Source of the DNA: Terriglobia bacterium
GTDB lineage: Bacteria; Acidobacteriota; Vicinamibacteria; Vicinamibacterales; CAVVIG01
Length of the DNA stretch: 64,000 nt
Assembly: GCA_020073005.1 (NCBI GenBank)
Contig: JAIQFX010000004.1
Span: forward strand, 1-64,000
Direction: 5' to 3'
Of the stretch, positions 30,632 through 31,802 are shown piece by piece. The position numbers and the translations under genes are program-made. Position 1 is the first letter of the stretch. Each line of letters starts with the position of its first letter. The notes under the pieces were generated by a model. That model saw only the letters and a program-made list of their open reading frames with translations. It was not told the origin of the DNA and ran no database searches.

Positions 30632-31285
30632 TCAGATGCCGCGAAGAGCCTCATCGATGAAGGCCGGCTCCGGCAGCGCGCCCATGATCTCGATCTGATC
30701 GTTCACGACGGTCTTCGGCACGCCGCTCACCTGATACTTCCGCGCGAGATCCGGATACTCGGTCGCTTCGACGGCGTAAGCCGTGACGTGCGGACTGGCG
30801 AAGGCCATTTCATGCGCGAGGCTGACCGCCCGCGGACAGTGCGGTCACGTCGGGGTCGTGAACACCTGCATCGTCACCGGCTTGTCGACGGACGCGAGGC
30901 GCGCGCGGCTTTCCGGCGACAGCATCGATTCGCCGCCGCCGGCGAGCAGAACGGCCCGCACGAGCGAGACGAACTCGTAGCCCGACGGCGCGCCGAGGAA
31001 CCGGATTCTGGAGTCGCGCCGCTCCCCTTCCTCTTCGTAGTCGACGGCGATTGCCGGCACGCGATCGATGCCGTACTGCGCCGCCTTGTCCGGCTCGAGG
31101 ACGAAATTCACTTCCTCGATCGTGATCTTGTCGGAGAGCTGCGGCAGCTCGTCGAGAATCTGGCGCGTCTGCGGACAGGTGTCGCAGCCGAGCGCCTGCG
31201 TGAAAAACAGCAGCCGCACAGGGCGGGTCATCTCGGAAAAGGCGTCGCGGAGTTTCTGTTGATCGGCGGGCGCGATGAGGGCCAT
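30632..31285 (-). CDS. Two-domain glutaredoxin-like protein disulfide oxidoreductase, probable selenoprotein (UGA at 30845-30847 read as Sec147)
   Basis: 217 aa, two thioredoxin folds in tandem as in PDO-type enzymes (about 220-230 aa). Domain 1 has LGCDTCPQT (Cys34, Cys37). In domain 2 the family motif TPTCPHC appears as TPT-UGA-PHC: the codon for the nucleophilic cysteine is TGA (30845-30847) and Cys150 follows. The frame continues with RAVSLAHEMAFASPHVTAYA, the cis-proline motif VSGVPKTVVN and the usual final helix to a TGA stop at 30632-30634. A SECIS-like hairpin begins nine nt after the UGA. Termination at the UGA would remove the whole second active site. The start ATG 31285 gives the family N-terminus, but I see no clear ribosome-binding site and a GGTGGCTG repeat sits just upstream. 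It is probably in an operon with the zinc-ribbon gene and converges on the permease gene. Confidence 0.85.
30815..30835 (-). promoter_or_regulatory. Candidate bacterial SECIS hairpin in the disulfide oxidoreductase mRNA
   Basis: On the minus strand GGGC pairs with GCCU (one G-U) under the loop GGUCA, and after one bulged C the stem continues with CGC/GCG, about seven pairs in all. The loop starts 17 nt after the UGA and opens with GGU, as in known bacterial SECIS loops. A competing pairing near the UGA (GACCGC with GCGGTC) exists, so folding should be computed. Confidence 0.55.
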
Positions 31286-31316: not shown

Positions 31317-31802
31317 TTACTTGAAAAGGTCGTCGAACGCGCGACGCGCGCTGTTCGACGCGCTCGACGCCTCGCCGGGGCTGTCGGACTTGGCCGCGGT
31401 GGGCGATCCGGTCTGCCGCTCGACGGTCGTGCGCGGCGTGAACATCGTGCACGCGTTGCGCTCGTCCTTCGGCGCGACGCGCGCCTGCAGCTGCGCGCTC
31501 TGCGCGCACTCCCAGCGCTCGCTCGTGTCGAAGGACCCGCACTGGATGCAGCTGTGCAGATCGACGCCGCACTTCGCGCAGCTGTCGAGCTTCCCAACCG
31601 AAAGCGACAACAGATTGCCGCAGCGCGCGCAGCGGAACACTTCGTGCGCCGCCATCAGGTTCGGCGTCTTCGGGCCGCGCTCGTCCTGCAGCACGCGCCC
31701 CGGCGCGCGCTCCTTGGGCGGCGCGGGCTTCTTTTCGCCCTTCGGACGCCGATCGCGGTCGTCGTCTTGATAGCCGCGTTGTCTGTACTTGCGGTCTGAC
31801 AT
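31317..31802 (-). CDS. Zinc-ribbon protein
   Basis: 161 aa. The first 45 residues are a charged, Arg/Lys/Pro-rich tail. Residues about 56-98 carry paired cysteines, CARCG, CAKCG and CIQCG, spaced as in double zinc ribbons, with a further Cys at about 103. The C-terminal half is low in order and ends in DDLFK. No enzyme motif. It is probably a small nucleic-acid- or protein-binding factor. It precedes the selenoprotein candidate on the same strand by 31 bp, so they may share a transcript. Confidence 0.65.
   Translation of the reverse strand: MSDRKYRQRGYQDDDRDRRPKGEKKPAPPKERAPGRVLQDERGPKTPNLMAAHEVFRCARCGNLLSLSVGKLDSCAKCGVDLHSCIQCGSFDTSERWECAQSAQLQARVAPKDERNACTMFTPRTTVERQTGSPTAAKSDSPGEASSASNSARRAFDDLFK

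Follow-up and report, generated by a model that had tools for sequence, protein, structure and literature searches.

A very probable selenocysteine-containing two-domain disulfide oxidoreductase and its conserved neighbour gene in an Acidobacteriota genome

Gene, reading frame and product

We analyzed a 64,000-nucleotide stretch of contig JAIQFX010000004.1 (hereafter the window) from a Terriglobia bacterium of the Acidobacteriota, in which a sequence-only reading had placed a probable selenoprotein of the PDO-like disulfide oxidoreductase type at positions 30632-31285. These coordinates and the description were right; the strand, which had been left unstated, is the minus strand. The locus contains the following features:

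31317..31802, minus strand: Cys-rich zinc-ribbon-like gene (161 aa), 31 nt upstream of the PDO gene on the same strand; a conserved neighbour
30632..31285, minus strand: predicted Sec-type two-domain PDO coding sequence, ATG at 31285, stop TGA at 30634-30632, 217 aa (from translation with TGA as U, TIGR02187 and 1a8l)
31175..31186, minus strand: N-terminal-domain CxxC, Cys34-Asp-Thr-Cys37 (LGC-DT-CP; from translation, kept in most homologues)
30845..30847, minus strand: in-frame UGA, predicted Sec147, which opens the UxxC of the C-terminal domain (TPT-U-PHC; from translation and the UGA or Cys codon in homologues)
30836..30838, minus strand: predicted resolving Cys150 of the UxxC (from translation, kept in all homologues reaching the position)
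30815..30834, minus strand: bacterial SECIS-type hairpin CGCGGGC-GGUCA-GCCUCGCG, loop at 30827-30823, in agreement with the published bSECIS model

Translation of the minus strand from 31285 to 30632 with TGA read as Sec gave MALIAPADQQ...GCDTCPQ...FTTPTUPHCPRAVSLAHEMAF...YQVSGVPKTVV...RGI, and the only internal TGA in this frame was codon 147. The proposal that the TGA at 30845-30847 replaces the first Cys of the second-domain motif was confirmed by the translation together with an alignment of Cys homologues. Cys34 and Cys37, said to be retained in the N-terminal domain, were both present, and the read-through frame contained VSGVPKT and the rest of the thioredoxin fold after the UGA, as had been described.

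On the TIGR02187 model (PDO_seleno_TRX), which has a cut-off of 185 bits, the protein scored 260 bits, residues 7-214 aligning to positions 3-207 of the 209-position profile, and Pfam Thioredoxin_3 matched two stretches of it. The PDO of P. furiosus (1a8l) matched residues 1-215 with an E-value of 1.8e-38, and in the alignment U147 faced the leading Cys of TPTCPYCP in 1a8l, which is the first Cys of the Pyrococcus C-terminal CPYC. Judged from its sequence, the protein has one CxxC-type site per thioredoxin fold, CDTC at 34-37 and UPHC at 147-150. The gene product is very probably a real selenoprotein, an enzyme of two domains that handles disulfides and has Sec in its principal active site. 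Gene prediction programs usually end such genes at the UGA, so the PDO is easily missed in Acidobacteriota.

UGA, cysteine and Sec machinery among homologues

When 396 genomes from the phylum were searched, 98 had a match, although the weakest matches were only other thioredoxin-like proteins. Many of the matches in these 98 genomes had exactly one internal TGA and others had none, and the closest protein relatives were found in Acidobacteria MAGs. We then read the codon at the UGA position in 59 distinct homologues from Acidobacteriota genomes and MAGs: it was TGA in 39, TGC or TGT in 20 and any other codon in none, these being phylogenetically non-independent counts. Cys thus aligned to the UGA, as the sequence-only reading had expected of Cys-containing homologues, and the second Cys of the U/CxxC was conserved wherever a homologue reached it. 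On a quick tree in which many forks were weakly supported, the Sec/Cys label required 10 parsimony changes, whereas shuffled labels required 17; counting only well-supported branches left a minimum of 3, indicating that Sec and Cys states switch repeatedly. The dN/dS after the UGA was 0.065-0.325 relative to ten relatives and was similar to that of the part before it.

The N-terminal CxxC was lost in two lineage groups, one with SxSG (FGSESG-type) and one with DPES (LADPES-type), which include Sec and Cys forms (L039, L042-L046, L048, L050, L073, L075, L077 and L080) and in which the C-terminal UxxC or CxxC was kept. Loss of the N-terminal but not of the C-terminal site fits the C-terminal site as the putatively essential one. 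In one genome (G391) we noted two PDO genes (L048 and L083), both with a UGA, and one of them reads TPN-U-PHC instead of TPT-U-PHC.

Another way to read the UGA is as a functional stop, by which regulated truncation would give a 146-residue first-domain product, with the full-length protein as a minor form made under selenium. The N-terminal domain and its CxxC would be whole in such a product, and decoding of UGA as Sec in bacteria generally competes with termination. However, Sec lineages that lack the N-terminal CxxC (FGSESG, L043-L046) would then be left with no redox site, and constraint after the UGA is strong; we consider this reading very improbable.

Sec insertion at codon 147 calls attention to the decoding machinery, which the sequence-only reading had proposed to look for. 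The source genome (5.86 Mb in 179 contigs) was found to encode all of tRNA-Sec, SelA, SelB and SelD, so that the absence of SelB and tRNA-Sec, named in the sequence-only reading as a ground for rejecting it, does not apply. The tRNA-Sec scored 60.4 bits relative to an Rfam gathering score of 47 and was confirmed by ARAGORN (anticodon TCA), and profile searches gave 347.6 bits for SelB, 541 bits for SelA and 349 bits for SelD. Across the phylum, SelB was over the cut-off in 30 of 30 Sec-form genomes but in only 5 of 19 Cys-form genomes (Fisher p 1.7e-8), and SelA in 29 of 30 versus 7 of 19 (Fisher p 5.9e-6), where both tests rest on species counts and not on independent events. The Sec-form genome with SelB and no SelA over the cut-off was G341; this is possibly due to an assembly gap or to a different Sec synthesis route.

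The SelD gene of the source genome has a single in-frame TGA of its own, within ACAGUASKLA (L018, about 1493-1560), so that the Sec-making enzyme would itself depend on Sec decoding. Such a codon is frequent in SelD genes. A 2006 survey places SelD among the selenoproteins (PMC1794560).

SECIS-type hairpin downstream of the UGA

A hairpin with the loop GGUCA, reported in the sequence-only reading to start 17 nt after the UGA, is present, but it is the loop that starts at 17 nt while the stem starts at 10 nt. The stem consists of 7 bp, and its 3' arm, GCC(U)CGCG, contains one bulged U; the hairpin folded alone had -11.7 kcal/mol. The bSECIS of E. coli fdhF has a loop that opens with GGUC and lies about as far from its UGA; it carries a bulged U on the 5' arm, whereas that of the PDO hairpin is on the 3' arm. 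In the bSECIS model, the loop has 3-9 nt with a G at its first or second position and the stem has 4-16 bp, with a UGA-loop spacing of 16-37 nt and an MFE of at most -7.5 kcal/mol (PMC13188914). The RNA folding that had been suggested as a check found a SECIS-like hairpin in agreement with this model at every point.

To place this hairpin among the homologues, we counted model-conforming hairpins with a loop within 21 nt of the codon, and these occurred in 37 of 39 Sec forms, in 6 of 20 Cys forms and at 29 of 300 random window positions. Relative to synonymous recodings of the same eight residues, for which the codon usage of this window was applied to all homologues, the folding had a mean z of -1.61 in Sec forms and -0.31 in Cys forms (Mann-Whitney p 3.5e-5). 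For the PDO gene alone, 6.6% of the synonymous recodings folded as well. When long flanks were included, the MFE structure differed from the hairpin and was no more stable than shuffles (z 0.18), and Rfam contained no matching family. Because of the 6.6% of recodings and the unremarkable flanked fold, the hairpin is singly weak evidence and the weight lies on the comparison of Sec and Cys forms. Taken together, the exchange of UGA and Cys at the exact codon in 59 distinct homologues and a hairpin that tracks the UGA make the comparative evidence strong.

The same observations bear on whether the UGA is a sequencing error, or a nonsense mutation that has turned a Cys-type PDO into a pseudogene. 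The assembly is fragmented into 179 contigs and a single base change converts TGC or TGT to TGA. However, 39 distinct homologues, some with only about 39% identity, carry the same UGA in many separately made assemblies, which already refutes this reading and agrees with the earlier argument that an error was unlikely. Purifying selection persists past the UGA, and the Sec machinery is present and co-distributed. The exchange of UGA and Cys, the co-distribution of the hairpin and SelB, and the purifying selection after the UGA rule out both error and pseudogene, to which we assign next to no probability. Decoding of the UGA as Cys or Trp, by a suppressor tRNA or a changed code, is vanishingly improbable and was rejected on conservation, selection and machinery: the exchange at this position is only with Cys, so that the protein alignment would be equally compatible with insertion of Cys, but UGA is the normal stop of the same gene (30634-30632), the genome has tRNA-Sec, SelA, SelB and SelD, and the hairpin tracks the UGA.

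Predicted mechanism, known family and neighbouring genes

We hold it almost certain that the gene encodes a PDO with two thioredoxin folds in which Sec takes the place of the nucleophilic Cys in the C-terminal CxxC, the more important of the two sites, the UGA being decoded via SelB and the hairpin. The frame, the exchange of UGA and Cys, the hairpin, the complete Sec machinery and the purifying selection after the UGA come from sequence, while the role of Sec147 as nucleophile and the enzyme's electron donor and substrates are taken from the family. In this PDO, which is probably located in the cytosol, Sec would be supplied as Sec-tRNA-Sec made by SelA and SelD. SelB, which the hairpin closely following the UGA would recruit, would bring the Sec-tRNA-Sec to the ribosome, where the UGA would be decoded as Sec and not as a stop. 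By homology, Sec147 would act as the nucleophile and Cys150 as the resolving thiol in thiol-disulfide exchange, while Cys34/Cys37 in the first domain would form another redox centre. From what is known of the family, an enzyme of the thioredoxin-reductase type would recharge the PDO, and peroxiredoxins would be among the substrates that it reduces. Mutagenesis of the S. solfataricus PDO found the C-terminal site to be fundamental for thiol-transferase activity, and that enzyme is reduced by NADPH and thioredoxin reductase and has peroxiredoxins as clients (PMC7465337). By analogy, we infer a disulfide oxidoreductase activity with NADPH/thioredoxin reductase as the donor for the PDO described here.

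The Sec-PDO is a new member of a selenoprotein family that is already listed. TIGR02187 PDO_seleno_TRX, earlier GlrX_arch, is recorded as 'Homolog of AhpF N-terminal domain (Grx-like domain protein)' with UxxC and the example ABB15282.1 (PMC13188914, PMC9312934). In passages of the 2006 survey, the 'homolog of AhpF, amino-terminal domain' appears with two Sec sequences, from Carboxydothermus and Symbiobacterium, and three selenoprotein families are counted in Acidobacteriota, with no names given there (PMC1794560); the text of the 2022 and 2026 reviews does not include Acidobacteria (PMC13188914, PMC9312934). The present protein shares with the listed members the family model (260 bits), the UxxC type and a Sec-decoding bacterial host, but it comes from Acidobacteriota, is common in the phylum and has the zinc-ribbon-like neighbour gene. 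The PDOs of P. furiosus (1a8l) and S. solfataricus likewise have two thioredoxin folds with a CxxC-type site in each; these are Cys-only enzymes of hyperthermophilic archaea, whereas the present protein has Sec at the first position of its C-terminal site. Relative to the open-licence literature, what appears to be new is mainly the breadth of the Sec form in Acidobacteriota, the repeated switching between Sec and Cys and the zinc-ribbon-like neighbour. Since this switching occurs within one phylum and the hairpin and SelB travel with Sec, the homologues offer a useful natural set of comparisons for learning what a PDO gains from Sec; in other respects the Sec-PDO confirms known biology.

The zinc-ribbon-like gene is probably co-transcribed with the PDO gene. 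It adjoins the PDO in all close relatives and in many other genomes from the order, in Sec and Cys forms alike, and is sometimes opposite to it in orientation (L023, L031); it was not detected beside more distant PDO homologues. Its product has conserved ends, MSDRKYRQRGYQDD and SARRAFDDLFK, and no Pfam or NCBIfam family matched it over the cut-off. A functional link between the two genes is plausible. It is an unlikely idea that they work as a redox pair dedicated to each other, where the Sec-PDO would set the redox and zinc state of its Cys-rich partner or the partner would anchor the PDO; we found no description of such a circuit in the open-licence literature.

The window was also scanned for in-frame UGA codons with loose filters, and this search identified the PDO and a rhodanese-domain protein, both of which are overlooked when strict composition and length filters are used. 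The latter lies at 353-823 on the minus strand with its UGA at 485-487 in the motif YCA-U-LDEATS, and a SECIS-like hairpin (-13.9 kcal/mol) has its loop 21 nt after the UGA. Its best NCBIfam match was NF041203 (rhodanese_LYCAU), with 72.9 bits, below the cut-off of 115. From these features it is a probable further selenoprotein of the window, and this YCAU-motif rhodanese (823-353, minus strand) is probably the other UGA-containing protein to which the sequence-only reading had alluded.
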